DNA of 64,000 nucleotides from Myxococcales bacterium (GTDB taxonomy: Bacteria; Myxococcota_A; Polyangia; Polyangiales; Houyiibacteriaceae). The notes under the pieces were generated by a model. It was not told the origin of the DNA. It did no database searches and was given only the letters and a program-made list of their open reading frames with translations. Shown here one piece after another: positions 1,643 to 48,582 of the stretch. The translations under genes and the position numbers were made by a program. The stretch is from assembly GCA_029861865.1 (NCBI GenBank), contig JAOTYL010000003.1:62001-126000 (forward strand). The letters are read 5' to 3'. Position 1 is the stretch's first letter, and each line of letters begins with the position of its first letter.

Positions 1643-2572
1643 ATGTCTCAAAGGGGGTCGATCGTGCCGTTCGCCGGCTGGCGGCGGCCGCGATTATTGG
1701 GGGATTCCCACTGGCGGGCCGCCCTCCGCTCGGTGGGGGACCGCGTAGTCCGGATCGCCGAAGAGGTGGTCGGCCAGGACATCGACGCCCGCATCGCCGG
1801 GATCCGAACTCATCCCAACGAAGTCGGCCACGACCCCTTTGGCTTCGATCCAGAAACCAGCCGCTATGCCCTCGCCATGGCGGGTCTGCTGCACCGTCGT
1901 TACTTTCGTACCCAGGTGTTCGGAATCGAGCGTATTCCCGAGGGGAGGGTGCTGATCGTCGCCAATCATTCCGGCCAGCTCCCGATCGACGCCGTGCTGA
2001 TCGCCTGCGCGCTCATGCTCGATGCGAATCCCCCGCGATTTCCGAGAAGCATGGTCGAAACGTGGACCGCCGAGCTGCCCTTCATTTCGACGCTGTACCC
2101 ACGGCTCGGCCAAGTGGTCGGCTCGCCGGAGAACGCGCGCCGCCTGCTGAGGCAAGAGGAGTCGCTGATCGTCTTCCCCGAGGGAGCCAAGGGGATCAGC
2201 AAGACCTTCGATCAGCGCTATCAGCTCACCGACTTCGGTCTCGGCTTCGTGCGGCTCGCGCTCGAGACGAATACCCCGATCGTTCCGGTCGCGGTCATCG
2301 GCGGCGAAGAACAGTATCCGTCGATCGCGGACTTCAAGCCGCTCGCCAAGCTCCTTCGGATGCCCGCGTTTCCGGTCATGCCGCAGCTATTCTTCGGGAT
2401 GATTGCGCCCTTGCCGACGAAATACCGCCTCTACTTCGGGGAGCCATTCCGGTTCGCGGGCGACCCCGACGACGAAGACTCGGCCGTCGAAGAAAAAGTC
2501 TGGCTCGTCAAGAGCACGATTCAAAGCATGGTGAATCGCGGCCTGCGCGAAAGAAAAGGCGTGTTCATCTGA
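1643..2572 (+). CDS. Lysophospholipid acyltransferase family protein (PlsC-like)
   Basis: The product carries the acyltransferase block NHSGQLPID, a variant of the NHxxxxD catalytic motif with wider His-Asp spacing, followed by the substrate-binding motif FPEGAKG. These are hallmarks of glycerophosphate and lysophosphatidate acyltransferases, which transfer an acyl chain to a glycerolipid at the inner membrane. There is no obvious long transmembrane segment, so it is probably peripheral. The frame is open from 1547, but the ATG at 1643 (MSQRGS) lies in the gap between this gene and the divergent phosphatase gene and is the better start. The exact acceptor lipid is unknown. The epimerase-like gene follows 20 bases downstream, so the two may be cotranscribed. 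Confidence 0.78.
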   Translation: MSQRGSIVPFAGWRRPRLLGDSHWRAALRSVGDRVVRIAEEVVGQDIDARIAGIRTHPNEVGHDPFGFDPETSRYALAMAGLLHRRYFRTQVFGIERIPEGRVLIVANHSGQLPIDAVLIACALMLDANPPRFPRSMVETWTAELPFISTLYPRLGQVVGSPENARRLLRQEESLIVFPEGAKGISKTFDQRYQLTDFGLGFVRLALETNTPIVPVAVIGGEEQYPSIADFKPLAKLLRMPAFPVMPQLFFGMIAPLPTKYRLYFGEPFRFAGDPDDEDSAVEEKVWLVKSTIQSMVNRGLRERKGVFI

Positions 2573-2592
2573 GGTAACCCGCAACCGTTCTT

Positions 2593-3696
2593 ATGCCTGA
2601 CACACAACCCACCCGTCCCAGCAAACCAAGCGCCCGTCCTCGGGGAGAGCCGGCCGAAATTCGCCCGTCCGCCCGCGCGTCGGTGGCACGGGGGGTGTTT
2701 GGTGATGCGAGCCAGCCGAGCGCGAAGCCTTCGCGTGAGAGTAGCGTTCGCCTCAAGGCCGCGGCCGAGGGCGCAGTGCTCGTGACGGGGATATGTGGAC
2801 GCCTTGGCAAGCTCCTCGCGCGCGAGCTCCACCGCTCGGACACGGTAGTGGGGGTCGATCGGCGGCCATTCATCGGGCGCCCAAAGGATATCACCCACCA
2901 CGAAGTCGACATGCGCCGAAAGAAGATGAAAGACATCTTTCGCGGTCGGAACATCCGAGCGGTCGTTCACGTCGGTGTCCTTCACAACCCTCGCCGTAGT
3001 GACCGGGAGCGACACTCCTGGAACATCGTCGCGTTTCAGAAGCTGCTCGAGTACATGGCGCAGTACGAGGTCCCGAAGCTCGTGGTCCTCTCGGGCGCCA
3101 ACGTGTACGGCCCGCAGGCCAACAACCCTCAGTTTTTGACCGAGGACGCGCCCCTGCTAGGCGCGCAGCACTTCGGCGGGATGCGTGACCTGGTCGAGCT
3201 CGACATGCTCGCTCAAAGCTTCTTCTGGAAGCATCCAACCACCGACACCGTCATCCTTCGCCCGTGCCACATTGTCGGGCGCGTCCGGAATGCCGCGAGC
3301 AACTACCTGAGGCTCGATCGTCCAGTGATGATCATGGGGTTCGACCCGATGATGCAGATCGTGCACGAAAAGGACGTGACGCGTGCGATCCAGCTCGCGC
3401 TGCGGCCAGGGGTCCGTGGCATCTTCAATATTCGCGGCCCGGGGGAAATGCCCCTTTCCCATCTCGTGCGCAAGGCAGGTGGGCGTCCGAGGGTGCTTCC
3501 GTCGCCGCTTGCGCGTCTGGCGCTCGACCAGTTGTGGCGGCTGCGTCTCAGCAACTTCCCGTCCCAGGAGCTCGACCATTTGCGCTATGTCTGCATGGTC
3601 GACGACACGCGGGCGCGCGAAGAGCTCGGGTACGAGCCGATCCATTCGATCGACCGGGCGCTTCGCGACCTTCGGCGCGTTCGGTATCTGCGCTAG
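2593..3696 (+). CDS. NAD-dependent epimerase/dehydratase family protein (extended SDR)
   Basis: After a basic, Pro/Ala/Ser-rich leader of about 60 residues the protein shows the extended short-chain dehydrogenase Rossmann motif TGICGRLGK and an acidic VVGVDRRP strand. Further on it has HVGVLHNP and LSGANVYGP, the region of the catalytic Ser/Tyr. The usual YxxxK is not obvious; the equivalent area reads GAQHFGGMRDLVE, so catalysis may be altered. The family acts on nucleotide sugars or quinone-like substrates. The protein follows the acyltransferase gene closely, which hints at an envelope or lipid role, but no substrate is assigned. Confidence 0.7.
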   Translation: MPDTQPTRPSKPSARPRGEPAEIRPSARASVARGVFGDASQPSAKPSRESSVRLKAAAEGAVLVTGICGRLGKLLARELHRSDTVVGVDRRPFIGRPKDITHHEVDMRRKKMKDIFRGRNIRAVVHVGVLHNPRRSDRERHSWNIVAFQKLLEYMAQYEVPKLVVLSGANVYGPQANNPQFLTEDAPLLGAQHFGGMRDLVELDMLAQSFFWKHPTTDTVILRPCHIVGRVRNAASNYLRLDRPVMIMGFDPMMQIVHEKDVTRAIQLALRPGVRGIFNIRGPGEMPLSHLVRKAGGRPRVLPSPLARLALDQLWRLRLSNFPSQELDHLRYVCMVDDTRAREELGYEPIHSIDRALRDLRRVRYLR

Positions 3697-31725: not shown

Positions 31726-32087
31726 GAGGACGGATGGTAAACGCCTTTCGTGGTCCTGAGAAAGGGGTCTCGTTCGAGCCCAGCTTTTGATTCGCACGAA
31801 AGTGGTCGCCAGCTGACCGGATTAGTGAAGGCGGTGGGAATCGAACAGCCTGCAGCTCACCCGATTCAGGCGATTCTCGAACGGTTTTGCGGACAGGTAT
31901 CCCCGAAGACACTGTCAAACAATACGGGCAAAACGCGGTAGCGGACGTTCTTATGACAATGTCACAAATCCCGGACGTGAATCGGGAGCTCGCAGAGGTC
32001 CGGGCGATGTTCGCGGTGTTTGACGTGCGGCGGCGGAAGCGTGGACCCCAGTGTGCCGCGCGCGCCACTAAGGGCCCGTCCAGCGCG
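31726..32087. other. Spacer with a possible gene remnant
   Basis: No intact gene is seen. On the plus strand around 31850-32040 two frames read like parts of one protein (HPIQAILERF, then after a shift IPEDTVKQYGQ and RELAEVRAMFAVFDVRRRK). It could be a decayed gene of unknown type. Support is weak. Confidence 0.25.
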
Positions 32088-32222
32088 TCATTTCGGCAAT
32101 CGATGATGCACGCCGCTTCCAGCAGAGCCACCGCTTCCACCATCGCCCGCAGTCTCACCGCAGCCAACGATTGGCATGACACCCAGCGCCAGCACGTAAA
32201 CCAAACCCATTAAGTACCGCAT
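32088..32222 (-). CDS. Lipoprotein stub (44 residues), probably truncated
   Basis: The ATG at 32222 has a perfect GGGAGG eight bases upstream. The peptide has a hydrophobic core LMGLVYVLALGVMPI, a lipobox IVGC and a glycine/serine linker (GDGGSGGSAGSG) of the kind that tethers large lipoproteins in Myxococcota. It stops eight residues after the linker, so the globular domain is missing. Either it is a tiny lipoprotein or, more likely, a gene truncated downstream of its export signal. Confidence 0.45.
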   Translation of the reverse strand: MRYLMGLVYVLALGVMPIVGCGETAGDGGSGGSAGSGVHHRLPK

Positions 32223-32643
32223 CAGAAACCTCCCGCTGACCCTTCCCACCGGAGCGCCATCAAGCAGAGCCATGTAGAAGCATCCGGTGTGCCAACGCAG
32301 ATCGGTTGGTTTCGAGGGGTTTTACAAAACCGTGACGTGCGCGTTCTGCGTTACGACGCGAATGAGTGCATAGAGTGCAGCATACTTTACCCCTTCGCTT
32401 TGGCGATTGACACTGGGTTCACCGTGGTTCACCAGCGGGGCGCTCATCGAAAACGACAATCAAGTTTGTCATTCAATTATTCGAGGCCAGCAACCAGTAA
32501 ATCAGCGCTGATGCTCTTCAGAAACCATCGTGAACGACAACCGATATTGACGTTCGTTCTGAGAGACGAATTGCGCGGAATGGCGCCGAGGGGCGAATAG
32601 AGCTATCAGGGCTGCAACACTCTCGAATAGGAACGAACGCAAA

Positions 32644-32841
32644 ATGGCTGAAGGTACAATCAAACGTCTTACGGACCGAGGCTTCGGTTTCATCGAAACC
32701 TCTCCCGGTAACGACATCTTTTTCCACATGTCGAACGTGGATGGCGTGCGCTTCGAGGATTTGCGCGAGGGACAGAAGGTCTCATTCGACGAAGGCCAAG
32801 GTCCCAAGGGGCCACGCGCGGAGAACGTCCGCCCTCTTTGA
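32644..32841 (+). CDS. Cold-shock domain protein (CspA family)
   Basis: This 65-residue single cold-shock domain carries RNP1 (RGFGFIE) and RNP2 (DIFFH), the aromatic residues that stack on single-stranded nucleic acid. It acts as an RNA chaperone. The 5' region is AT-richer than its surroundings and longer than 100 bases, as is common for cold-shock mRNAs. A short GC hairpin (CGAGGGC-GTG-GCCCTCG, 32874-32890) downstream may act as a weak terminator but has no T-run. Confidence 0.92.
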   Translation: MAEGTIKRLTDRGFGFIETSPGNDIFFHMSNVDGVRFEDLREGQKVSFDEGQGPKGPRAENVRPL

Positions 32842-32972
32842 GGCCGTGCGCAGATCTGCGTGAGGGCAGCTCGCGAGGGCGTGGCCCTCGTGCCCCTGAT
32901 CTTCAGGCGACTTCGACGCGCTTGAGCCGAGACGTACGACTCCAGCGCGAGCGCATAGGCCGCTTTCGTCGC

Positions 32973-33254
32973 TCAGCGCTGACGCTCTTCAGCAATGTCT
33001 AACCCTCGCTCCGCTGCCATCTCCGTCAGTCGCCGTTGAACATCCGTGCGTCCGAGTAGCCTGACGCGTTTCGACCCGAACCTTTGCTTGGCGACCTTCA
33101 CGAGCTGCTCGAGCGCATCATCGCGGGCCTCGCCGAGGAGCTCGATCGATTCTGCAGACTCTCGGAGCCGCACCTCGCCTGGCAGGTTGTGAACGATGCC
33201 TCCGCGACTCGTCCACAATTTTACGAGAGGGCAGGGGCTGAAGTCGGATCTCAC
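32973..33254 (-). CDS. Fragment resembling the LPD7 domain of relaxase-type proteins
   Basis: The sequence VRLRESAESIELLGEARDD, followed by a helix with KVAKQRFGSKRVRLLGR and RLTEMAAERGLDI, follows the beta-alpha-beta pattern of large-polyvalent-protein domain 7. That domain is attached to relaxases and other mobile-element proteins. No relaxase catalytic domain is adjacent, and the N-terminal 20 residues look unrelated. It is best read as a stub of a mobile-element gene. Confidence in the family is low. Confidence 0.3.
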   Translation of the reverse strand: MRSDFSPCPLVKLWTSRGGIVHNLPGEVRLRESAESIELLGEARDDALEQLVKVAKQRFGSKRVRLLGRTDVQRRLTEMAAERGLDIAEERQR

Positions 33255-33287
33255 GGCTCTTGATCGCCAGCCCCCGCAACTGCCGGC

Positions 33288-33500
33288 TCAAACGCCGCAG
33301 TGCACGATCAAGACCTTGAAACGGTCCTCGGGGCTCGCGCGTTCAGCCATGCCGCCCGTGCCCCCGGAACGACCTGGTCCTGCCATGCCGCCTCTTCCAC
33401 CGGAACCACCTGGTCCATTAACTGGGGGATCGTCCCCGCAGCCGCCCATCCCACCAAGGCAACCGAGCACCACTGTGAGAATCAATCTATAGGAGTTCAT
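33288..33500 (-). CDS. Glycine-rich lipoprotein stub
   Basis: The ATG at 33500 (MNSYRLILTVVLGC) is preceded by AAAGGCGG. The export signal ends in a lipobox GMGGC and is followed by DDPPVNGPGGSGGRGG, a Gly-rich linker. After about 50 residues the frame ends without a domain (FKVLIVHCGV). This is the second truncated lipoprotein within 1.3 kb. Confidence 0.45.
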   Translation of the reverse strand: MNSYRLILTVVLGCLGGMGGCGDDPPVNGPGGSGGRGGMAGPGRSGGTGGMAERASPEDRFKVLIVHCGV

Positions 33501-34597: not shown

Positions 34598-36313
34598 TCA
34601 CGGAAACAGGATGTCACCCCAGGACGGTCCACCGGCCTCCAGGAGAGCTTTGTCGATGGCATGGGAGATATCGAAAACTTGAGGCTCCGGGTAATCCCAG
34701 ACACCGCAGGGTGGGTGGCCTGAACCTGATGCAGCGATTACTGCGTTTGCAGCGCGTCGCCCTGCCTCGTTTGCCCCTTCCATGGTTGCGATATCGACGT
34801 TGGTCCTCACATAGTCCGCTGCAAGCATCAGATTCTGGATTGCAGTGGCAGTTCTTGGCCTATCGCTCAACGAACACGCCGTGTTGGTCAGCAGCGGCTC
34901 GGCATTTTGCGCCGCCCCTCCCTGCGGGAACGAAATGGCCGGGTCGAGAAAGAAGTCGACCGGATCTTCGGCGCCCAGAGGTAACGTCACGGAATTCGGC
35001 AGATGTGCGACCAACTGTTTCCAGGTCTCGTCGGCGACTTCGTTGGGTGTAGTACACTGCTCAGCGGTCTTGACGTGCACCTTGTCGCCCGGCGTCGTCC
35101 AATCCGATATGACAATCGACAAGAGGCCGTTGAGCGTGCCATCGCCGTAGTTTGATAGCTGGTCGTTTGGCCAGAATTGGGGCTGCGAAATCCCGGTCAA
35201 CGCCCACTTGGAGTCCGCGAAATTGACGTGACCTTTAACGATGGGAACATCCTTACTCAAATAGAACATGATGCCGGTCATCCACGACACCTCGAGATTC
35301 TTGATCCCGTTCAGGGAAGGCGCGGCTGTTGTCAACGCGAGATTCGACTCGGCCAATGGTGTCATGACTTCCACGGGAACCGCGGCGACATAATAGTCTG
35401 CGGTTACCGTCGTCGCGGCATTGGTCTGGGTATTCTCGACGGTTGCCGACGTGATCGTCGCCGGCACGGCGCCCGTGCTGACGTTCAACCCGGTCAGCTT
35501 TTGTTCCTGGTGAAAGTTGACTCCCTTGTGACTTAGATAGGCGACCCACGGGCTGAGCCAGGCATCGTTGGTGGGGGCATTCAGCACCCGATCCATCGTG
35601 CCTTTCCCAAAGAATACGCGGAAGAACTGGGCCAGCGTGTTGCCTCCGGTCATCGTGCTTGCCTTTTGTGCATCCATTGCCACGAACGCCCGAGAAAATC
35701 CTGTCACAAACATCTTGTTGTACTGAGCCGAACGCTGGATTGGAACATTGTGGTAATCCCACCACGTCACGCACTCGTATTCCTTCTCGCGCCGCTCTCG
35801 ACACATCGCAAACAAGCGCAGTATTCGTTTCAGCAGTATTTCCTTCTCACCGGGGGCCAACCCCAACTCCGGATTGCCGAAAAAACTATCGAGCGCGACA
35901 ATCCACTGCGGCAAGGTCTTTGGCGTATCGGGGGTCAACTTGTAGAGGGCTTTCCCCTCCTGGGCGATCGCGAACATTCCCGCATCGACCAGATTGTCGA
36001 ACGCGGTCGAGGGACCGATCGGCGCGGTCGAGGGACCGATCGGCGCGGCCGAGATACTGTTCAGCGGTCCGAGCGGGATGCGTTTCATCGTATCGTCGAG
36101 GTGCTGATAGAACCCCGGAAAGAAACGAAACCCGTGCTCGCCGGGTAGGTCCGGAAGAGGGGGAGTGCCGGTTCCTCCTTTCTCCAGGCTTCGAGCCTTG
36201 CCGCCGCAAATCTTGTTCTTTTCATAGACGTCGACTTCGAATCCACGCTCTCTCAATTCATGAGCAACGGTCAACCCGCCGACCCCGCCGCCGAAAATCG
36301 CTACCTTCGTCAT
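34598..36313 (-). CDS. FAD-dependent desaturase-like oxidoreductase (amine oxidase superfamily)
   Basis: The N-terminus KVAIFGGGVGGLTVAHELRE is the FAD-binding dinucleotide motif, followed by VDVYEKNKICGGKARS, as in phytoene desaturases, hydroxysqualene dehydroxylases and related amine oxidases. GEHGFRFFPGFYQHL is also characteristic of that branch. The C-terminus (MEGANEAGRRAANAVI) completes the FAD site. It likely oxidises or isomerises an isoprenoid, but the substrate is not proven. A 7-residue repeat (APIGPST twice) is present. It is the last gene of a minus-strand run, and its start at 36313 overlaps the end of the cyclase gene. Confidence 0.78.
   Translation of the reverse strand: MTKVAIFGGGVGGLTVAHELRERGFEVDVYEKNKICGGKARSLEKGGTGTPPLPDLPGEHGFRFFPGFYQHLDDTMKRIPLGPLNSISAAPIGPSTAPIGPSTAFDNLVDAGMFAIAQEGKALYKLTPDTPKTLPQWIVALDSFFGNPELGLAPGEKEILLKRILRLFAMCRERREKEYECVTWWDYHNVPIQRSAQYNKMFVTGFSRAFVAMDAQKASTMTGGNTLAQFFRVFFGKGTMDRVLNAPTNDAWLSPWVAYLSHKGVNFHQEQKLTGLNVSTGAVPATITSATVENTQTNAATTVTADYYVAAVPVEVMTPLAESNLALTTAAPSLNGIKNLEVSWMTGIMFYLSKDVPIVKGHVNFADSKWALTGISQPQFWPNDQLSNYGDGTLNGLLSIVISDWTTPGDKVHVKTAEQCTTPNEVADETWKQLVAHLPNSVTLPLGAEDPVDFFLDPAISFPQGGAAQNAEPLLTNTACSLSDRPRTATAIQNLMLAADYVRTNVDIATMEGANEAGRRAANAVIAASGSGHPPCGVWDYPEPQVFDISHAIDKALLEAGGPSWGDILFP
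36005..36046. repeat. Tandem 21-bp repeat inside the FAD oxidoreductase gene
   Basis: The 21-base unit beginning GGTCGAGGGACC occurs twice without a gap at 36005-36025 and 36026-36046. It is in frame and adds seven residues (APIGPST) to a surface loop. It is a recent slippage duplication. Confidence 0.7.
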
Positions 36314-36314
36314 C

Positions 36315-39300
36315 TCAACCCTCCTCACTAGTCAACACCGGGCCCATCGTGATCAACTGACTAGGCACTTCGATTTCAAACAGCCGTACCGGTCGCGAAA
36401 CGCCTTTGAACTCGCTGGGGCCCCTGTCTTGCAACTGGAGCTCATCCGCTAGTTCCCTCGCCGTCGTCTCACTGATGAGGATCTGACCACCAGTCGCGTG
36501 GTCCGCGATTCGTGCCGCCAGATTCGTCGTCGGTCCGTGCACTGTGTATGCCCAGCGTTCGTCCGTCTTGCCTCCGAGCCTACTCAAACCCACCAGCGCC
36601 GGCCCCGAGTTGATTCCGATGTTGATCACTACCGTCGGGAACTCTGACTCGTGTTTTGCGTTCAATTCCGCCGTGCAAGCTTGCAGCGCCACGGCCGTTT
36701 GCGCTGCGAGCGGCCCGTGCGTTGGATTCTCGAAAACGGCCATGAAACCGTCCCCCGCCGTTTCCACGATTTCGCCTTGTCGCTGCCAGATTTCTTCCGC
36801 AAAGCTCGAAAAATAGGTGTCCACGAGCTTTTCGACGGCCTCTTTCCCGAGCAGTTCGTTCATCTGGGTGTATCCAGCGATGTCGACGAACATCACTGAC
36901 ACCTCGCGTTCCTGCCGGACCATGTCCGGCGCCTCTGGATTCTCCGCGAGCAGCCGCCTAACAGGGACTGGAACAAACTTACCCAAATGATCGCGATGCT
37001 GCTCCAGCTTCGAGATCGTGCGTCGCGTCTGCTCGAGACGCGATTGCTTCTCTCGAAGATCGGCGAGCATTTGATTCCTGGCCATTGCCGTTTCGATCGC
37101 CGCGAGATACGAACGGGTTGCGGCGACGGTCGCTTCGGAAAAAATACTCGGCAGCGACCGGTTCTCGAGATACACGACGCCGATCGGGTCGTCTGTATTG
37201 CCCAGCATCCTGCAGAAGACTGATCGTGGCCTGTGCGTAGCCAAGTAAGGGCACTTTGTGAAACGCGTGTCCTCGGCGCAGTCTCGAATGGCGATGCTCG
37301 TGCCACTCTTGGCAACGTAGCGGACGATTGCAGATGCGCGGACGCTCTGCACGTCACGCGTGGCGTCACGCGCAGTTATGAAATCCAGACCACGGTCGGT
37401 AAGCCCAAATACGACGCCCCAGTCTGCGTTAGCATCGCGACACAGGTCTTCGAGCACGTGATTGATCGAATCTGTGGCCCCGCCCAGGGGCACCGCCGAC
37501 GTCGGCGCCGTTGCGCCGTGTGCGTAGATCTTTTCGTCTTGATCGTTGGCGACTTCATCGAGCACGCGCAGGTGCGCATGCTTCCGCGCAAGGCGGCGCG
37601 CCTTCCGGTAGCCGTTCCACTCCCGGTAGAGCCGCCAGGCTCTCTCCAGAAAGACACCGGCAAGGTCCTCGCGCTCCTCCCGCGCAAGGTGCTCTGCGGC
37701 AAGCTCGTTTGCGAGCGCTTCAATGTGGATGAAGCCGTTTCCGGCAGCCGACTTCATCGCGCGTTCGTAAGCATTGAGCGCGTTCTTTCCGCGTACCGAC
37801 TGGAGCTCGGCAGAGAGCACTTCGTGTTGCTGGCCGAAGTTCTCGGGGCAGCCCTCAGCCCACTTGCGGAATCGACGCCTGCAATCCTTGAGCGTACTAG
37901 CGTATTTCTTCTGATGGTCCGGTTTCGACTTTGCGAGCGCTGCCGCCGACAGGCCGAGATAGAAGAACAGATCGGCCACGACTATCTGCCCGAGCACGCT
38001 GTCGCTATGGGACTTGGCCCGCATGCCGAATTTGTAGGCCGTCGCGTAATCCTCATCGAGATAATGAAGCTGCGTCTTCAGCGCCCAAAAGTAAGTCAAC
38101 GCAGTCTGGTTTCCGCTCGCCCGGAATTGGCGCATCGCCCTTTTTTCAGCAGATGGATCGAGCGATACCGCCGAGTCATCGAGCATCGTCCGTGTGGCCT
38201 CCCGCCACAGCCGGTGCGTTTCCATGGAGAAAGTATCGTTGGTACGCCGGACTAATGGCTCATAGCGTTCGTTCAATGAAAGCACTTCAGAGAGCGGAGC
38301 GCCGGAGGAGAACATCAGCGACACGGTGCCGAGCACCGCATAGTTGGCGTACTGAATATCGCCGGCTTCGAGAGCCTGCGACAAAGATGCACTTAAGATG
38401 TTCAGCGCGGTTGTGACTGGTTGCGACCAGAACGCAATAAACGCGCCGCTGATCATCCATATCTTGGATCGGAGAATGATGTCACCGCCCCGATCGGCAA
38501 GCTTCATGGCCAATTGAGCAAAGCGGTAGCCGTGTTGGGGTTTGCCGGTCACGGCGCTGAGAACCAGCCCGTAGATGACGTAGCCGAAAGCGGATTCCGT
38601 CGTGTGCGCCTGCGATATCGAGCGATTGAGCAGCCGCAATCCGACAAATGCCATGATGCTGGTGTTTCGAAAGTACGCGGCCGGACCGATGATCATCAGA
38701 AGGGCGTTCGTCGCTTTCAACGTCTTGTCCTCGCTGAACGGCGACTCCGCTAGGCGATCCAGCGAACGAAACGCGGTTTTCGACCGCGCCAGCAGTAGCT
38801 CGCTCAGAACTTGTGCCCGGCTAGGCTGGGCCGCAATCCGCATACCCAGGGAACGAAGCGCTTTGACACCGGTTTCGACGGCCTCGTCGCCCCGATTCGC
38901 GCCGGTCAACAACAAGATCTTGGTGTACACGACGCCAGCCAGATCGTGGCGGTCCTCAGCATGGGATTCTAACGATTCGAAAAGTGCATTGGCGGCGGCC
39001 GGATTGCCGTTTAGATACTCACTCTCGAACGTTTCGCTGTACAGGTCGAACATCAGCCGATGATCGCTCTGCCATGCCGATTCGGGAGCCCACTTCATGC
39101 CGGCTCGGAAATAGTTCAACGCGTCACGATATGCAGCCTCGCGCCGAGCTTCCTGTCCTGCTTGAAGATTCAACTCAGCATATGCCAACCGCTGTTTCGG
39201 GTCGGCGACGGCACCAAGACCAAAGTTGATGTTGTTTACGACGTCGACCGGCACGTCGCTCTTACCGGAATCGGCGAGCTCTTCGAGCAACCGCTGACCA

Positions 39301-41354
39301 AAGTGAAGACGGATCGCGGACAGTTCCTCGTCGGACACGATACAATACGCAGCCTGCGCCAGTTTGTCGTGGATGAAGCGATACCCCGAACCGACGTGTG
39401 TGAGGACGCCCATAACGACGGCCTGGTCGAGCAGGGCCCGCACGGTTTCCTCCGGCTCTTTGATCAGACACGCGATTCGCTTCGGCTCGAACGGATTGCT
39501 AATACAGGCACCCGCCAAGAGTGCGGATTTTGCACGGGGCACGAGGCGATCGAGCTTTGCGCGGGCAAGGTCGATAACGTCATCGGTGATCGCTCGCTGA
39601 ACAATTTCGTTTGGATCCCAATTCCATTGATCGAGCCGCTCGTCGAACACCAACAATCCCTGCGCGTGCAAGTGTTCGAGCAAGTGGCGAGCGAAAAGCG
39701 GGTTGCCTTCGGTGCGTTCGTGTACCAGCTCGCTCAACTGCGCACACATCGATGCGTCAGTCGCGGGACCGAGCGCTTCCCCGACGAGCTGGGCGATCTG
39801 CGGTTCTTCCAGACCCTCAAGTCGAAGAATCGACGTCGAGGCTCCCGAGTCCGCCATCCTTTGAAGGCTTTCTTCGGCCCTGATTGCGCCGTCGCCGTTG
39901 CTTCTGAAGCAAAACAACACCAACACGTCGGTAAGAGATTGAGCTGAAACGAGGTATTCCAGGAGGGTCAATGAACCGGAGTCGGTCCACTGCACGTCAT
40001 CGAAGAAAAGACAGAGGGGGCCACCGACCTCGACCAAAATTTTCACGAATCTTTCGAACGTCGCGTTGAACCGATTCAGGCCCTCACTGGAAGGCACCTT
40101 GGGCGCTTCGGTCAACGCGCCGACGATCGGCGAGAGCTGTGGAATCACGTCAGTAATCAATGACGCGTTCACGCCGAGCAGTTCCTTCACGCGGTTGGCC
40201 AGCGTGTCTAGCTGACCTTCGCGGGCGGCCATCTGCGCGACCCGTGCTTCGATAGCCTGCACGAACAGTCCGTAATGGATGTCGGTATTGAACTGATCGG
40301 CCTTCCCGCCGACAATCTCCATCCCGGTTCGGCGGATACGTTCGCGCACCGTCAAAACAAGGCCCGATTTCCCGATGCCGGGGGTGCCGCTGATGGCGAC
40401 CAGCTTCAGCGGCCCCGAACGCGCCGCCTTTGCAGCTTCGAGAATAAGAGCCTGCTCCTGCTCGCGGCCGCGAAACGTATCGGGCACGCCGAAAGCTGCG
40501 AGCAGGTCTCTGTCGCCAATACGCGACTGGCCGGCACCTAGCTTACCGCCGCGCTCCGCAAGGCTTTCAGTAAGGTCGTAGGTCAGACCATAGTGCGTCT
40601 GGTACCTTTGCTCCGGCGCCTTATTCAGTAGGCGCATCACGAGCTCCGACACCCATACCGGAACCGTCGGGTCCAGCTCGTCGGGTCGCGCCGGCATTTC
40701 CGTCAGTAATTTGTGACGGTGTGAATCCACGTCGAGCGCTTCGAACGGACGCTGACCCGTAACACCGCGATAAAGAAGGACGCCTAACGCAAAGAAGTCG
40801 GCGCGGTAGTCACAGCCGAAGGCTGTCGAACCGACTTGCTCGGGGGCCAAATACAGCAACTCTGGCGGCGGGGCGGAGCGCGGCCTGCCTTCCTTGGTCG
40901 ACGAACCGCTGAGGTCGAACAATCTGACCCCCGGAAGATCCGCATGAACCCAGACGGTCGCAGGGCTGAGCCGGTTATGGTTCATCCCGGTCTTGTGCAG
41001 CAGTCGCAACGCGTGCGTCACATCATGGCCCAGTCGCAGGCTGGCGCTCAGATCACCAACGTATCGGCGTCTGAACGGCCGGAAGCCCTCGTCCCGATAC
41101 ACGAGATAAGGCTTGTGTTGAATCTTCAGCCGCCCAAGACACTCATGAACCGTTCCGGGCGGCGCCAGCGCGTGCGCATGCTCGTCATGGTGAAGCCACT
41201 GCAGTTCAACAGGGGACGGCTCATCGGATTTGAACGTGCGCAACAGCAACCGATCGCCATCGAGTCCGCTGCCTTCGAACAGAATGCTGAAGGAATCTTC
41301 CCAGACGGCGTCTCCGAGCTTTATCTCGGATAGATGCACGCGTTCCTGCGTCAT
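36315..41354 (-). CDS. Giant signalling protein: pseudokinase, AAA ATPase, helical repeats, GAF, class III adenylate cyclase
   Basis: The 1679-residue protein starts with a kinase-like fold (about 10-270) that keeps LAPEQVG and DYRADFFALGVLLY. The loop HRDxKPxN reads HNRLSPAT (126-133), which removes the catalytic Asp and Lys, and DFG reads DLS. An AAA ATPase follows with Walker A SGTPGIGKSG (about 322-331) and Walker B LFFDDVQWTD. Some 600 residues of helical repeats come next, then a GAF domain, a coiled coil, and a C-terminal class III cyclase with FVDIAGYT, ETAGDGFMAVF and NLAARIAD holding metal and transition-state residues. The ATG at 41354 overlaps the methyltransferase stop (TAATG), so the two are coupled. 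The architecture resembles PknK-type hybrid proteins. Confidence 0.88.
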   Translation of the reverse strand: MTQERVHLSEIKLGDAVWEDSFSILFEGSGLDGDRLLLRTFKSDEPSPVELQWLHHDEHAHALAPPGTVHECLGRLKIQHKPYLVYRDEGFRPFRRRYVGDLSASLRLGHDVTHALRLLHKTGMNHNRLSPATVWVHADLPGVRLFDLSGSSTKEGRPRSAPPPELLYLAPEQVGSTAFGCDYRADFFALGVLLYRGVTGQRPFEALDVDSHRHKLLTEMPARPDELDPTVPVWVSELVMRLLNKAPEQRYQTHYGLTYDLTESLAERGGKLGAGQSRIGDRDLLAAFGVPDTFRGREQEQALILEAAKAARSGPLKLVAISGTPGIGKSGLVLTVRERIRRTGMEIVGGKADQFNTDIHYGLFVQAIEARVAQMAAREGQLDTLANRVKELLGVNASLITDVIPQLSPIVGALTEAPKVPSSEGLNRFNATFERFVKILVEVGGPLCLFFDDVQWTDSGSLTLLEYLVSAQSLTDVLVLFCFRSNGDGAIRAEESLQRMADSGASTSILRLEGLEEPQIAQLVGEALGPATDASMCAQLSELVHERTEGNPLFARHLLEHLHAQGLLVFDERLDQWNWDPNEIVQRAITDDVIDLARAKLDRLVPRAKSALLAGACISNPFEPKRIACLIKEPEETVRALLDQAVVMGVLTHVGSGYRFIHDKLAQAAYCIVSDEELSAIRLHFGQRLLEELADSGKSDVPVDVVNNINFGLGAVADPKQRLAYAELNLQAGQEARREAAYRDALNYFRAGMKWAPESAWQSDHRLMFDLYSETFESEYLNGNPAAANALFESLESHAEDRHDLAGVVYTKILLLTGANRGDEAVETGVKALRSLGMRIAAQPSRAQVLSELLLARSKTAFRSLDRLAESPFSEDKTLKATNALLMIIGPAAYFRNTSIMAFVGLRLLNRSISQAHTTESAFGYVIYGLVLSAVTGKPQHGYRFAQLAMKLADRGGDIILRSKIWMISGAFIAFWSQPVTTALNILSASLSQALEAGDIQYANYAVLGTVSLMFSSGAPLSEVLSLNERYEPLVRRTNDTFSMETHRLWREATRTMLDDSAVSLDPSAEKRAMRQFRASGNQTALTYFWALKTQLHYLDEDYATAYKFGMRAKSHSDSVLGQIVVADLFFYLGLSAAALAKSKPDHQKKYASTLKDCRRRFRKWAEGCPENFGQQHEVLSAELQSVRGKNALNAYERAMKSAAGNGFIHIEALANELAAEHLAREEREDLAGVFLERAWRLYREWNGYRKARRLARKHAHLRVLDEVANDQDEKIYAHGATAPTSAVPLGGATDSINHVLEDLCRDANADWGVVFGLTDRGLDFITARDATRDVQSVRASAIVRYVAKSGTSIAIRDCAEDTRFTKCPYLATHRPRSVFCRMLGNTDDPIGVVYLENRSLPSIFSEATVAATRSYLAAIETAMARNQMLADLREKQSRLEQTRRTISKLEQHRDHLGKFVPVPVRRLLAENPEAPDMVRQEREVSVMFVDIAGYTQMNELLGKEAVEKLVDTYFSSFAEEIWQRQGEIVETAGDGFMAVFENPTHGPLAAQTAVALQACTAELNAKHESEFPTVVINIGINSGPALVGLSRLGGKTDERWAYTVHGPTTNLAARIADHATGGQILISETTARELADELQLQDRGPSEFKGVSRPVRLFEIEVPSQLITMGPVLTSEEG

Positions 41355-42250
41355 TACAATACTCGGCCCGTTCCGCCCGGCTTTTGGGCGACAAGTATCT
41401 TGTACTGCCAAAGGCGCTTTTGAAGCGCTTCGTACTGGTATCTTGCGGAAAGGAGGTTTCCGTGCGCGACGTCGCTGCGAAGGCCGGCCTTGTTCAGAAT
41501 GAACGAAAGCCAGTGGCAGATCCGTGCCAGACAATACAACCGAAGCGACGATCGTCGCATTCTGTTTGTCCAGTCATGCACTTCGATCCGTTCGAAGCCC
41601 ATCGAATCGGCGTTTTCCTTATGCTGCGTCTCTGTATCGAGAGAGGGAATACTCCATCCCGACAGCCAGTCCGCGACGAGCTTCTGGTCCGCCGGCAGCA
41701 TGTCGATTTCTGTAACCATGTATTCGGCGATTACGAGCCGGCCACCCGGTCGCAGTAGCCGACACGCTTCCGAATAGAAGTCGACCTTTCTCGGACTGTG
41801 ACACAGGCTCTCCAGGGCCCAGACCACATCGAACGAGCTGGCCTCGAAGGGCGTCTTCGTATAGTCGGCCCGTCGGAACTCGGTCCGTCCGCTCAGACCA
41901 CGCCGATCGGCTTCCTTTCTCGCATAAACGAGTTGTGACGTAACGAGGTTTACTCCTACGGGCCGTGCACCGAGCTTCTCTGCCAGCCAAAAGCAGCTCC
42001 CGCCGCGACCGCAACCTGCGTCGAGCACTATGTCGCCCTGCTTGACCGCGGCGAAATTCGCGAGCGTCGCATTGGCATTGGCTACCGCCCTTCTATGGTG
42101 ACGGCATTGCTCGTCGTAATAACCATAGTGGAACGCGGGGTCCGACCGATGCGCCCAAAGCGAGCTGTAGTCGAAGTGGGTGTGGTCGTAGTAACGGATG
42201 ATTGACCCAATCAGGTCGACGCCCGCGGCGCTACTTGTCATGTCCACCAT
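41354..42250 (-). CDS. SAM-dependent methyltransferase, sterol/tocopherol-type
   Basis: The class I methyltransferase motifs are VLDAGCGRGGSCFWLAE (SAM binding), VGVNLVTSQLVYAR, FDVVWALESLCHSP and LLRPGGRLVIAEYM. The preceding YYDHTHFDYSSLW and the position of motif I resemble C-methyltransferases acting on prenyl lipids (tocopherol, sterol or geranyl diphosphate types). Starts at 42250 and 42241 are both possible; the frame is open to 42331. It is the first gene of the run that continues with the giant cyclase protein and the desaturase-like enzyme, and it is divergent from the cNMP-binding kinase gene. Confidence 0.8.
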   Translation of the reverse strand: MVDMTSSAAGVDLIGSIIRYYDHTHFDYSSLWAHRSDPAFHYGYYDEQCRHHRRAVANANATLANFAAVKQGDIVLDAGCGRGGSCFWLAEKLGARPVGVNLVTSQLVYARKEADRRGLSGRTEFRRADYTKTPFEASSFDVVWALESLCHSPRKVDFYSEACRLLRPGGRLVIAEYMVTEIDMLPADQKLVADWLSGWSIPSLDTETQHKENADSMGFERIEVHDWTNRMRRSSLRLYCLARICHWLSFILNKAGLRSDVAHGNLLSARYQYEALQKRLWQYKILVAQKPGGTGRVL

Positions 42251-42577
42251 CGCCAGTCGTCCTTGGCTGTTGCGGTCTAAAGAGCGGTTTCTGAGGATAC
42301 CCGATTTCGAGGCCCCCGTCGTGGCCCGCATCGGCGCGGGCGCATGGTTCTTGAGCTGCCGCCCGCACCTCGGTAATTCGACGAGCCGTCAGCGTTCAAC
42401 CCAGCCGGGCTGGCATCAGGTTGTCGCTTGCTTTGTCCTGGCCACCTTGGGTACCTTCAGAGACGCATAACTGGCGGCCATGACCAATACTCATACCCCT
42501 CCTAGCCCGACGCACGAGAACGCCGCGAAACATTCTCTAAACGAGGTGCTCTGCCAAGGGGAACACGGCTGGACGGG

Positions 42578-43807
42578 GTGCGGCCGGTGACCGGCAGGCC
42601 GAGCGCTTCCAACGGCCACCCGGCCGTCACAAATAGCGCCGATTCTAAACGATTTGAGCGGCAGTCCCTGCTAGGCGAAGGGGGCATGGGAACAGTGCAC
42701 CTCGCATTCGACCATCTCATCTTGCGAGAAGTAGCCCTGAAGACCCTACGCGACGATTTGAGCGAGTCCGAGGATCTTCAACAACGCTTTATTCAAGAGG
42801 CCCAGCTCACAGGGCAACTGGATCACCCCAATATCGTCCCGGTGTATGAATTGACGACCAGCAGCGACGGTGGCGCGCCATCCGTCATCATGAGGTACGT
42901 GGACGGCGAAACCTACTCGGAGCTGGTCGAAGGACTCCATGCCTCCCCCACCGACGCGAAGTTGCAAAAGACACTACAGGTATTCCTCAAAGTTTGCGAC
43001 GCCATCTCGTTCGCACATGAGCGGGGAGTCATACACTGTGATCTGAAGCCAGAGAACATCATGGTGGGGAAGCACGGTCAGGTCTATGTGATGGACTGGG
43101 GCATCGCTTTCCTCCGGGAAGCGGAGCGGGTGCCGCTCGGTGGAACCCTCGGCTATATGGCGCCCGAACAACTGACGGGTGACCGAAGTGCGATCAACGC
43201 GACCACGGATGTTTACGGCTTAGGCGGGATTCTATGCGTTCTTCTCACCGGCGAGCCCCCACGGACCGAAGCGTCTGCCCTTGCGGACTGGTCTGAGACT
43301 CCGCGCCTCGAGGACAGAAAAGCCATGCCAGAGGTGCCGCCTGAGCTATGCCGCATCGCTGAGCGAGCGCTGAGTCCCGCACAGGCAGACCGCTTCCAAT
43401 CTGTCGATGAGCTGAAATGCGAAATGGAAGCATTCATGGCAGGAGGGGGTTGGTTCGCAACACGGCACTATTTGGGCGGCGACGTCATCATCCGTGAAGG
43501 CGACAGTGGCTCTGAAGCGTTCATCATATCGAGCGGCGTCTGTGACGTCTTTAGGGGCAAGCCTGAGGGACGTCGCCAGTTCATCCGCAGTATGGGGCCC
43601 GGGGATACTTTCGGCGAGCTCTCCGTCCTCACCCGCATGCCGAGGAGCGCCACCGTAGTGGCACAGACAGACGTAAGTTTGCGACTAGTGACGTTAGAAG
43701 CACTCGATCGCGAGCTCAAGCGTAACCCCGTCCTCGCCTCCTTCATATCCGCCGTTTCAAACAGATTCTGCGATCTGGAGGCTCGCCTCAATGCGAGCAA
43801 GCAGTGA
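42578..43807 (+). CDS. Serine/threonine kinase with C-terminal cyclic-nucleotide-binding domain
   Basis: Residues 25-285 form a complete kinase. It has the glycine loop GEGGMGTV, Lys55 in EVALKTL, the loop HCDLKPEN with Asp155, DWG (173-175) in place of DFG, and APEQL. Residues about 290-395 form a cyclic-nucleotide-binding fold with GGDVIIREGDSG and the phosphate-binding cassette FGELSVLTRMPRSATV. Glu347 and Arg356 of this cassette are the residues expected to bind the ribose and cyclic phosphate. The product resembles PKA/PKG with the order of domains reversed. The GTG at 42578 follows GGACGGGG. A short frame at 42480-42590 (MTNTHTPPSPTHENAAKHS) may be the original N-terminus, separated by a frameshift. 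Confidence 0.9.
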   Translation: MRPVTGRPSASNGHPAVTNSADSKRFERQSLLGEGGMGTVHLAFDHLILREVALKTLRDDLSESEDLQQRFIQEAQLTGQLDHPNIVPVYELTTSSDGGAPSVIMRYVDGETYSELVEGLHASPTDAKLQKTLQVFLKVCDAISFAHERGVIHCDLKPENIMVGKHGQVYVMDWGIAFLREAERVPLGGTLGYMAPEQLTGDRSAINATTDVYGLGGILCVLLTGEPPRTEASALADWSETPRLEDRKAMPEVPPELCRIAERALSPAQADRFQSVDELKCEMEAFMAGGGWFATRHYLGGDVIIREGDSGSEAFIISSGVCDVFRGKPEGRRQFIRSMGPGDTFGELSVLTRMPRSATVVAQTDVSLRLVTLEALDRELKRNPVLASFISAVSNRFCDLEARLNASKQ

Positions 43808-44008
43808 AGTGCTGTGGTACGAGTCCGCGTCTTGCATCTCGACGGCCACCGGTTCCGACGGACTCCACTGGATCTGAGTCAGCAAGATCGGAATCGCGAC
43901 GACCAAGAGCGTAACGACCCGGTGCTTGCGGATGGATCTGCCGATGAATTCTGCACGCTGCTGCTTTGCCTGTTCGATGATTCGGTAGCTTTCTTCATAA
44001 TTGGTCAT
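43757..44008 (-). CDS. Small single-pass membrane protein
   Basis: The ATG at 44008 has an excellent GAGGAG ten bases upstream. The 83-residue product has a charged N-terminus (MTNYEESYRIIEQAKQQRAE), one transmembrane helix (VVTLLVVAIPILLTQI) and a short periplasmic tail. No family is recognised. Its 3' end overlaps the convergent kinase gene by 51 bases, so the two could influence each other's transcription. Confidence 0.55.
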   Translation of the reverse strand: MTNYEESYRIIEQAKQQRAEFIGRSIRKHRVVTLLVVAIPILLTQIQWSPSEPVAVEMQDADSYHSTSLLARIEASLQIAESV

Positions 44009-44986: not shown

Positions 44987-46582
44987 TCAACCAATCGATT
45001 TCGTCGTACCCGCCCGGCTCTTGAAGCGTTCCGGGTCGATATCCAGGGTCGCCATGCGGCTGATCAGCCCGGTGCGTGGAACGGAAAGCATGCGGGCGGT
45101 TCTTGCCACGATGCCCTCGCACGCCGCGAGCGCGTCTTCGATGATCGCCTTTTCGAGGTCGTCGAGCTCTGATTTTTGGTCGTCGAGCTCCTGCCAGCGT
45201 CCCTGGATTCCGTCTCGGGTCCGCGGGTCGGAGGACATCGAGGAGGCGCGCGTCGGTTTTGTGTCGACCGGCCCCGCCGCTTCGAGGCCGAGATGACGGG
45301 CTTCGATGACGGCGTCTTTCGGATTGGTCGCGCGGGCGCGGTTTCGTGCGCGCTCCAACACCGCCTCGAGCTCGCGGATGTTGCCGTCCCAAGTGAACAG
45401 TCGAGAAGTAAGCAGCTCCACGGCGCTGCCGTCGAGCTCCCAGTCGGTCTGTGCGTCGGTCCGGTTCAGGTAGCGGCCCGCGATCGAAGGTATGTCGGCG
45501 CGTCGCTCGCGCAGAGGCGGAAGGACGATCGGCACGGTGGCGAGGCGATAGTAGAGGTCCTGTCGGAAGCGCGTGTCCGCGATCGCCTTTTCCACGTCGC
45601 CGTTGGTTACCGAAATGAGCCGGAGGCTGGCGGTCTTTGGCTCGCGACCTTGGTAGCCAAGGGGTCTGTAGGATCCGAACTGGGTGAAATCGAGCAAGAG
45701 CTGCTGCGCATTCAGCGGCAAGTTCAACACCTCGTCCAGGATTAGGGTTCCGCCATCTGCGTACTCCACGAGCCCCTTGCGTTTAGACACGGCGCCGGAG
45801 AATGAGCCCCGCTCGTGCCCGAAGAGCTCGGAGGTGATGGTGTTGAGATCGTCGGCCATCCCGAGTGTCGCGCGGACGATGGGCTCTTGGTTGCTCGCGC
45901 GCGCGAACGCGGTGGCGAGTTGGGTCTTCCCCGTGCCTGACTCGCCCAAAAACATAATCGACGCTTGGCCGGCGGCTGCCGCGCGAAGCTCCTCACGAAT
46001 AGCGGTCATGCTGTCGGGGCTGAGCAGATCGTCGAGGCTCAAATAGTGCTCGTTTCGGTCCTTGGCGCGCTCGACGCGAAGGTCTTCCCTCGTAGTCTCG
46101 ATCAGCGTCTGCTGTGCGATGACGCCGCCAAGGAGCGACCCTACGCATTCGATGAACTCCAGCACTTCTTTTCTAGTTCCTTGGTCACCCGAGAACTCGA
46201 GGTACATGGCGCCGATCAACGTACGACCACGCCCGGACGCCGTAGGGTGCGACCAGAGCGGGACAGCGGCAAACGACCCCTCAGGCGCGAACGGAACGGG
46301 GCCTGCGAACGTCTTGAGCTCGGCTTGCACTTGGCTGAGTGACTCGGTCACGTGCTGAGCCAGGACCGCAGGTGGCACACCGCGGAAGCTTGCCGTGCGG
46401 GAGCGATGCATTGGGCCTGCACCCTTGGTCTCTAGGGTGCTCCACGCTGAGGCAGCGCCGATCTGCACACAGAGTGCTTCGAGGGTCTCCTCGATGAAGC
46501 GACCTCCGTGAAGCCCCTTCACGACCGCGGATACGATGTCGCGCATGCGCGGCCAGGGATTCGTGATCTCTACGCGGCCCAT
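44987..46582 (-). CDS. Sigma-54-dependent transcriptional activator with GAF sensor
   Basis: An N-terminal GAF-like domain (about 1-170) is followed by an AAA+ domain with Walker A FLGESGTGKTQLA, Walker B TLILDEVLNLP and the arginine-finger region. A Fis-like HTH follows at the C-terminus (IVARTARMLSVPRTGLISRM). The loop that contacts sigma-54 reads GSFSGA instead of GAFTGA; replacement of the Thr by Ser is conservative but uncommon. It probably responds to a small ligand at GAF, as no receiver domain is present. The SRPBCC gene lies about 400 bases upstream on the same strand. Confidence 0.88.
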   Translation of the reverse strand: MGRVEITNPWPRMRDIVSAVVKGLHGGRFIEETLEALCVQIGAASAWSTLETKGAGPMHRSRTASFRGVPPAVLAQHVTESLSQVQAELKTFAGPVPFAPEGSFAAVPLWSHPTASGRGRTLIGAMYLEFSGDQGTRKEVLEFIECVGSLLGGVIAQQTLIETTREDLRVERAKDRNEHYLSLDDLLSPDSMTAIREELRAAAAGQASIMFLGESGTGKTQLATAFARASNQEPIVRATLGMADDLNTITSELFGHERGSFSGAVSKRKGLVEYADGGTLILDEVLNLPLNAQQLLLDFTQFGSYRPLGYQGREPKTASLRLISVTNGDVEKAIADTRFRQDLYYRLATVPIVLPPLRERRADIPSIAGRYLNRTDAQTDWELDGSAVELLTSRLFTWDGNIRELEAVLERARNRARATNPKDAVIEARHLGLEAAGPVDTKPTRASSMSSDPRTRDGIQGRWQELDDQKSELDDLEKAIIEDALAACEGIVARTARMLSVPRTGLISRMATLDIDPERFKSRAGTTKSIG

Positions 46583-46983
46583 ATCGCCCGCTTAGCCTAC
46601 ATGCTCGAACCGTTCTCGACCAGAAGCGTTCAGCCGCCGGGTCGCGGATGTACGGCACGTTGGGTAAGGCAAGGATAAAGCACCGCCCTGTCGTTCCTCA
46701 AAACGTTGTCCGTCGCGAGATGATGGCGAAGCTGACCCAGCCGACGGAACTCGGACCCCTACGTGCGTTGCCGACGGTTCGACGAGCGCGAAATGAGCGC
46801 GGCATGCACCTTAGCCTCGCGCAGTGCGCGCAGCTCACGCTCACGTCCGACTTCGTGTGGGAACCACCATCCTCCGTAGTCCACACGTAATTCTTCGCTT
46901 GTCGTCGTTGCGCGGAACTTTCGTCGCCCTGCGTGGACGCGGATAGAGAAAACGACGTGCAGCGAACGTCTCTGAGTGTCGTT
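46583..46983. other. Intergenic region with no supported gene
   Basis: Short frames on both strands lack ribosome binding sites and protein-like composition. It holds the promoter region of the sigma-54 activator gene; no clear -24/-12 element was found. Confidence 0.4.
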
Positions 46984-47412: not shown

Positions 47413-47539
47413 GTCTTCACCCTCCTTTTCGGAAAAGGTGATGCTACCAGGGCGCTCAATTCTTGAACATGCGTAATTATTCACCCTCGCCGACGGCTGC
47501 ATCTCAAACGCCCCCACGTCGCACATCGAGTCCCAGGCG

Positions 47540-47939: not shown

Positions 47940-48443
47940 GCGTTTCGACGCAACACGGATCCGCGCGCTGGGCGAATAAACGGGATCTCATCCGGGCCGG
48001 TCTTCTTAGAAGGGTCGAACGCGGCGGGGTCTTCGTCGGCGCGTGGCGCGATCGTTTGGGTAGCGTGCGTTGAAGCGCTCGAACGGATCGCGCCCGAGGA
48101 AGGCTTGATCTTTAGCCGGTATGACTACCGGAGGACCCTCCGCAAAGCGGCCGCCCAGGTCATTGGCGAGGAGCGCGCTCGCTACCTCACGCTCCGAGAC
48201 CTGAGGCACGCCGCACTCACCGATCTCGCAGAGTGTACGCAGAGCGTCGGCGCCGTGGCGGCCATTGCAGGCCACCGAGACCTCCAGACCACGAGCCGCT
48301 ACTTCAACGCTCGCAAGCGCGCGGCGACGGCGGCGCTCAGGGCCCGAACAGCGGCCGATCGCCGGCTTGCAACTGTAACGGGAACTGTAACAGTGCCCGA
48401 TCCCCAATCGGGGACAACGACTTTACCCCAGAAAATAGGGGAT
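47940..48443 (+). pseudogene. C-terminal remnant of a tyrosine recombinase/integrase
   Basis: From about 48060 the plus strand encodes GLIFSRYDYRRTLRKAAAQ, then LTLRDLRHAALTDLAECTQS and VAAIAGHRDLQTTSRYF. These contain the RHxxxT box, the HxxR box and the catalytic Tyr of tyrosine recombinases. The first catalytic Arg region and the N-terminal DNA-binding domain are missing. The frame runs uninterrupted into the tRNA-Arg gene and stops at 48548, as in integrases whose end abuts the attachment site. Confidence 0.65.

Positions 48444-48582
<139 letters not shown>

Follow-up and report, generated by a model that had tools for sequence, protein, structure and literature searches.

The most prevalent bacterial receptors for cyclic AMP (cAMP) and cyclic GMP (cGMP) are Crp-Fnr transcription factors, according to the part of PMC10127613 drawn on here, and bacterial guanylate cyclases have been considered rare, in the words of a 2004 title cited in PMC4215837. 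In class III guanylate cyclases the first base-selecting residue is Glu, and the second is one of C, S, T, H, A and G (PMC4215837). Myxobacteria are known to have PP2C phosphatases that end in a domain for cyclic nucleotide monophosphates (cNMP), which are called a Myxococcales-only combination in the excerpt of PMC2887360 used here; cyclic-nucleotide-binding domains (cNBDs) on myxobacterial phosphorylation enzymes thus have a precedent. Here we describe a locus in a 64,000-nucleotide stretch of a Myxococcales bacterium (assembly GCA_029861865.1, contig JAOTYL010000003.1, positions 62,001 to 126,000; ‘the window’), which encodes a Ser/Thr protein kinase with a C-terminal cNBD (K-cNBD) and, on the opposite strand, a large protein ending in a class III cyclase. 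A literature search, with most subscription papers and the 2008 myxobacterial kinome outside its scope, brought up no publication that describes a bacterial kinase-cNBD chain partnered by a cyclase.

We read the locus as a local relay in which a cyclic nucleotide, probably cGMP, would pass the signal of a STAND/GAF cyclase on to a kinase in another protein, and give this reading, which is built on sequence comparison, a probability of about 0.5. The features of the two proteins are as follows.

42578..43807, plus strand: K-cNBD, Ser/Thr protein kinase with C-terminal cNMP-binding domain (409 residues, GTG start; PF00069 129.5 bits, PF00027 78.1 bits)
42653..43393, plus strand: kinase domain; Lys55, Glu74, HCD (Asp155), Asn160, DWG (Asp173) and APE all present; non-RD (HCD)
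43463..43726, plus strand: cNMP-binding domain (PF00027, residues 296–383)
43610..43657, plus strand: phosphate-binding cassette FGELSVLTRMPRSATV with Glu347 and Arg356, both kept in nearly all homologues
36315..41354, minus strand: pseudokinase, AAA_16 (STAND-type ATPase), helical region, GAF and class III cyclase (~1,680 residues)
40593..41027, minus strand: degenerate kinase region (HNRLSP, FDLSG), a pseudokinase without catalytic Asp and DFG
39918..40475, minus strand: AAA_16 ATPase (Walker A GTPGIGKS, Walker B LFFDD)
37089..37463, minus strand: GAF domain (PF01590 25.9 bits)
36402..36914, minus strand: class III cyclase catalytic domain (Guanylate_cyc 85.5 bits; residue set D-E-D-T-N-R)

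An earlier sequence-only reading of this DNA had described most of these features correctly. The kinase (PF00069 at 26–272) and the cNMP-binding domain (PF00027 at 296–383) do share one 409-residue chain, in the reverse of the order in cGMP-dependent protein kinase (PKG), and Glu347 and Arg356 of the cassette are where it placed them. The large minus-strand protein has all the parts it was said to have, from the kinase-like region through AAA_16 and GAF to the C-terminal Guanylate_cyc domain. Its kinase-like region was also rightly called a pseudokinase, the catalytic loop reading HNRLSP and FDLSG standing in place of DFG.

Both functional parts of the kinase chain are conserved. Among 111 distinct K-cNBD homologues, the catalytic residues, Asn160 included, are kept almost without exception (Lys 110/111, Glu 111/111, Asp of HxD 111/111, Asp of D(W)G 111/111), as are the cassette Glu (110/111) and Arg (109/111); the residue after Arg356 is T, S or A in 59, 25 and 17 homologues, respectively. 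AlphaFold2 models the window kinase with confidence (mean pLDDT 89.6, pTM 0.85), and the nearest solved fold to the kinase part of the model is PknB (Z 32.2, 256 residues, 2.1 A). The cNBD was placed by sequence, since Foldseek and VIA, given the entire model, listed kinase domains and hardly probed the cNBD; its nearest solved sequences are apicomplexan PKG (E 5e-29) and RI-alpha of cAMP-dependent protein kinase (PKA; E 6e-20). The kinase contains a single PF00027 stretch, not the tandem cNBDs of PKA and PKG.

The K-cNBD chain is a family of the Myxococcota. A scan with one genome per species found the kinase-cNBD layout in 58 loci (L051–L108), nearly all of this phylum, and at least 51 of the 377 genomes in a phylum sample hold a K-cNBD match at E<=1e-60, a lower bound because only four candidates were scored per genome. 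The statement that a kinase and a cNMP domain in one bacterial chain are uncommon was therefore too strong for the Myxococcota, with their 111 distinct homologues.

The sequence-only reading had proposed to look for the same neighbour in other Myxococcota, and it recurs. A profile built from the cyclase domain of the window was compared with the six-frame translations of every K-cNBD locus retrieved. A class III cyclase domain lies no more than 6 kb away from 17 of the 111 distinct K-cNBD genes, that of the window among them. The expected number of such neighbours is about 1.1, given a background of 0.99 domains per Mb (401 cyclase domains in 404 Mb from 49 genomes) and 1.13 Mb of flank. Without the window, 16 neighbours against 1.1 correspond to a Poisson p of ~1e-13, and to 6e-7 at three times the density. 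Beyond the 17, L223/L039 and L145/L275 have a large cyclase one gene further off. Kinase-only controls (19 loci, and 21 more, most of which belong to other phyla) yielded no confirmed cyclase; this control alone is no proof of specificity, as it is small and fewer than one cyclase is expected in it by density.

The partner cyclases differ widely in build. Response regulator-cyclases occur in L086, L100, L149 and L174, an FHA-cyclase in L041, a TPR-cyclase in L169, a cyclase-AAA protein in L173, tandem cyclase-AAA proteins in L056 and L038/L075, and kinase/AAA-GAF-cyclases in the window, L066, L223, L275 and L157. On the kinase tree, the cyclase-neighbour label is scattered, with 17 changes, at least 12 of them forced by well-supported branches, and the association therefore arose repeatedly. 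That K-cNBD is paired again and again with cyclases of unrelated build speaks for a coupling of the two through the cyclic nucleotide product and not through shared ancestry of one cluster. At one of these loci, two K-cNBD kinase genes flank a single response regulator-guanylate-type cyclase (L086, 6515–11329).

As to the nucleotide, the window cyclase has the residues of a class III guanylate cyclase: both metal-binding Asp, the transition-state Asn-Arg pair, and Glu and Thr at the two base-selecting sites. In the alignment with Cya2 of Synechocystis, itself a guanylate cyclase, the equivalent place is likewise Glu; Cya2 and CyaB are the closest solved relatives of the window cyclase. Its product is thus probably cGMP. 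Among 15 scored K-cNBD-associated cyclases, Glu occupies the first site in five (the window, L086, L100, L149 and L152) and Lys in two, as compared with 1/40 and 38/40 in a background of 40 myxococcal cyclases. The Fisher p-values, 0.004 for the enrichment of Glu (0.013 without the window) and 7e-9 for the depletion of Lys, are indicative only, because the background was drawn from the stronger PF00211 matches, which favours canonical sites. With Glu in 5/15 against 1/40, the partner cyclases often appear guanylate-cyclase-like.

A search from the opposite side looked in the 377 genomes for the Cya2-type motif, written as a DNA pattern. It gave 15 matches, of which 12 were confirmed as cyclases and three (L351, L353 and L362) were dropped as they contain no cyclase domain. 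A cNBD protein adjoins five of the 12 confirmed guanylate-type cyclases, being a K-cNBD (G447, G297), a cNBD-kinase (L350), a cNBD-GGDEF protein (L352) or a pair of cNBD proteins (L359). This fraction suggests that the phylum has circuits of guanylate cyclases and cNBD proteins in which kinases are one output.

Three of these loci have features of their own. In L350 (G158:C71, 6781–9909) a response regulator-guanylate-type cyclase stands beside a 540-residue protein in which the cNBD comes before the kinase, the order of eukaryotic PKG. In L352 the guanylate-type cyclase and the cNBD-GGDEF protein (2103–3455 and 2–1225) are neighbours, so that cGMP-controlled synthesis of cyclic di-GMP (c-di-GMP) is possible. 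In L359 (2155–4991) a response regulator-guanylate-type cyclase is divergent from two adjoining cNBD-only proteins.

The immediate surroundings of the two genes bear on how closely they belong together. Two further genes lie on the minus strand.

41354..42331, minus strand: S-adenosylmethionine-dependent methyltransferase (PF08241, Methyltransf_11, 76.5 bits), first gene of the putative minus-strand operon
34598..36328, minus strand: flavin adenine dinucleotide-dependent oxidoreductase of the HpnE/carotene-desaturase superfamily (PF01593 57.1 bits, PF13450 45.1 bits)

The methyltransferase gene had been overlooked when the cyclase gene was described as divergent from the kinase gene at a distance of 300 bases. 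The gap at the kinase gene, 246 bases, separates it from the methyltransferase gene, and from cyclase start to kinase start the distance is 1.2 kb. The TAA of the methyltransferase gene and the ATG of the cyclase gene overlap as TAATG at 41354, and the 3' end of the cyclase gene overlaps the open reading frame (ORF) of the oxidoreductase, for which an alternative ATG exists at ~36313. The three genes form one end-to-end overlapping array and are probably co-transcribed as an operon.

At the thresholds used, neither the kinase nor the cyclase has a match in 18 congeners, and no listed congener match covers about 34.1–43.5 kb of the window. In congener G005, the match to the window sets in at 43,836, which is 29 bases beyond the stop codon of the kinase gene, and is preceded by an unrelated gene. 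Judging by this right junction and the absence from the congeners, the kinase, methyltransferase, cyclase and oxidoreductase genes look like one accessory block. Just downstream of it (44987–46582) lies a gene for a sigma-54-interacting AAA activator with a Fis-type helix-turn-helix, which is conserved in G005.

Within its own genome, the window kinase is the only kinase ORF with a cNBD that was found, and eleven further cNBD places exist elsewhere. There are only two class III cyclases; the window cyclase is the only one of Glu type, the other being an FHA-GAF-cyclase of the Lys/Thr adenylate type.

The flavoenzyme connects the locus with a wider set. A 1,041-residue HpnE-like flavoprotein of L223 has relatives in five loci with K-cNBD and cyclase, L223 counted (L223/L039, L145/L275, L056, L038/L075 and L173), and the window flavoenzyme is distantly related to this family (profile E 2.5e-9). 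The subfamily of the window flavoenzyme is found beside STAND-like kinase/cyclase genes in ~9/20 loci and the other subfamily in 13–15/20, in both cases mostly without K-cNBD. In L255, cyclase and flavoenzyme stand in the order seen in the window, and L272, elsewhere in the window's own genome, holds another flavoenzyme beside a 1,255-residue kinase-AAA protein. Since the flavoenzyme accompanies STAND kinases and cyclases more widely than it does K-cNBD, the pairing within the module is not obligate; K-cNBD would rather join a subset of a wider association of flavoenzymes and STAND kinases/cyclases. Across the Myxococcota (L255–L294), HpnE/carotene-desaturase-like flavoenzymes repeatedly adjoin large kinase-AAA or cyclase-AAA (STAND) proteins. 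Two more specific assignments found no support: the flavoenzyme scores 78.4 bits as hydroxysqualene dehydroxylase HpnE (cut-off 283.05), the methyltransferase 66.1 bits as geranyl diphosphate 2-C-methyltransferase of a 2-methylisoborneol-type terpene locus (cut-off 400), and the methyltransferase stays below the cut-off for every NCBIfam equivalog among the matches listed.

The subset joined by K-cNBD may be non-random with respect to the N-terminal kinase of the large cyclase. This kinase is dead in the cyclases near K-cNBD in the window and L223/L275, and HxD and DFG are kept in those of L255, L277, L278, L279 and L292, where the fetched flank holds no K-cNBD. L157 is an exception, and the correlation comprises only two independent lineages (the window; L223/L275), numbers too small to support a claim.

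In the proposed relay, a STAND-type receptor composed of pseudokinase, ATPase, helical repeats and GAF would control the C-terminal class III cyclase. By its Glu-Thr base-selecting pair, the cyclase would most likely make cGMP. The nucleotide would bind the C-terminal cNBD of the divergent kinase, in which pocket and kinase residues are intact, and switch its activity, so that the kinase could supply the phosphorylation output that the dead N-terminal kinase of the cyclase protein cannot. The methyltransferase and the flavin oxidoreductase probably represent a metabolic or redox branch on which the receptor reports or which it controls.

Several observations weigh against this relay. The genes for the window kinase and cyclase are 1.2 kb apart with the methyltransferase gene in between, and ~85% of the K-cNBD homologues, the nearest relatives of the window kinase among them, lack a cyclase in the 6 kb around them. 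Cyclase and flavoenzyme are often neighbours where K-cNBD is missing. The residue rule for the base is imperfect. At the first base-selecting site, several partner cyclases carry a residue other than Lys or Glu, and a background sampled from strong PF00211 matches favours canonical sites. Moreover, canonical residues do not restrict a cNBD to cyclic nucleotides, since such domains can bind other ligands as well. The local cyclase-to-kinase signal suggested by the sequence-only reading thus gains from the recurrent proximity of the cyclases, but the two genes are not an exclusive divergent pair, in view of the intervening methyltransferase, the flavoenzyme operon and the many K-cNBD genes without a cyclase.

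There are two other explanations, both of which we consider unlikely. The kinase might answer to a cell-wide pool fed by the second, adenylate-type cyclase and not specifically to its neighbour, which would serve other cNBD proteins. The eleven further cNBD places, the FHA-GAF-cyclase of Lys/Thr type and the majority of K-cNBD homologues lacking a cyclase neighbour would fit such a pool; the strong and recurrent proximity of cyclases to K-cNBD and the enrichment of Glu-type sites among precisely these cyclases speak for a local source. Alternatively, the functional unit might be the minus-strand operon of flavoenzyme and STAND kinase/cyclase, with the methyltransferase, and the kinase a bystander in the same accessory block. 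The frequent flavoenzyme-STAND neighbourhoods without K-cNBD, L255 and L272 included, agree with this, yet each of the five loci named above combines K-cNBD with an AAA-cyclase and a flavoenzyme, and K-cNBD-cyclase proximity persists where no flavoenzyme is present.

Trypanosomatid PKA has canonical cNBDs that respond to ligands other than cyclic nucleotides. A corresponding loss of cyclic-nucleotide regulation, leaving the cNBD as a docking or dimerisation fold or as a receptor for another ligand, is very improbable here, with the cassette Glu and Arg kept in 110 and 109 of 111 homologues and cyclases as neighbours. Least credible of all is anti-phage signalling of the Pycsar kind, in which the product of a pyrimidine cyclase acts on a cNBD effector. 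The cyclase domain does match PADLOC models of PycC weakly (55.9 bits), but among solved structures it is nearest to Cya2 and CyaB, the matches at E<1e-3 include no chain under the name PycC, the effector here is a kinase and not a membrane or TIR protein, and the other PADLOC matches reflect generic kinase or methyltransferase similarity.

If the cyclase-to-kinase relay exists, the recurrent kinase-cNBD/cyclase pairing would be a prokaryotic phosphorylation relay of the PKA/PKG kind, readily testable by genetics and biochemistry. It would show whether the coupling of cyclic nucleotides to Ser/Thr kinases arose independently of eukaryotes, and would assign a function to some of the many myxobacterial kinases without an assigned role. 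The comparisons suggest that bacteria may have their own version of the eukaryotic cAMP/cGMP-to-kinase relay. A more far-reaching idea, which we offer tentatively and regard as possible but doubtful, is that the Myxococcota evolved their own cGMP-dependent protein kinases, combining guanylate-type cyclases of many builds with kinases carrying the cNBD in either order. In the window, the dead in-cis kinase of a STAND receptor would then have been replaced by a trans-acting kinase reached via cGMP.

Some features of the window lie outside this block. Short dispersed repeats of intergenic type, present in many copies in the genomes of the genus and in the own genome, were found at 31822–33300, 46690–46860 and 48440–48520. 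An ORF at 47463–48548 matches phage integrase marginally (28.3 bits, cut-off 27.1) and overlaps a polyketide-cyclase-like ORF on the minus strand; it may be spurious.

Among known systems, the TOMM system kinase/cyclase fusion (TIGR03903) resembles the large protein as a fusion of kinase, ATPase and cyclase; the window cyclase scores 76.3 bits against a cut-off of 705.75 and was not assigned to this family. The cAMP-sensing c-di-GMP phosphodiesterase Bd1971 is likewise a non-transcriptional effector enzyme with a bacterial cNBD, but of cNBD-EAL build according to the portion of PMC6717892 used, where the window has a kinase. In the PP2C-cNMP phosphatases, a C-terminal cNBD is also attached to an enzyme of Ser/Thr phosphorylation, which is however a phosphatase and not a kinase, and the cited excerpt of PMC2887360 mentions no linkage to a cyclase. 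Synechocystis Cya2 (2w01) shares with the window cyclase the class III assignment, the first-site Glu, the metal Asp pair and Asn-Arg; its second site is Gly instead of Thr, and the window cyclase sits inside a STAND receptor of 1,680 residues. PKG, for example that of Plasmodium (5ezr), which gives the best solved-sequence matches of the window cNBD, is similar in having kinase and cNBD in one chain and the cassette Glu and Arg. It differs in carrying several cNBDs, placed before the kinase, whereas K-cNBD has one, placed after a kinase domain whose top fold matches are bacterial PknB. By these differences K-cNBD is neither a PKG nor a PKA, although it would work like one.

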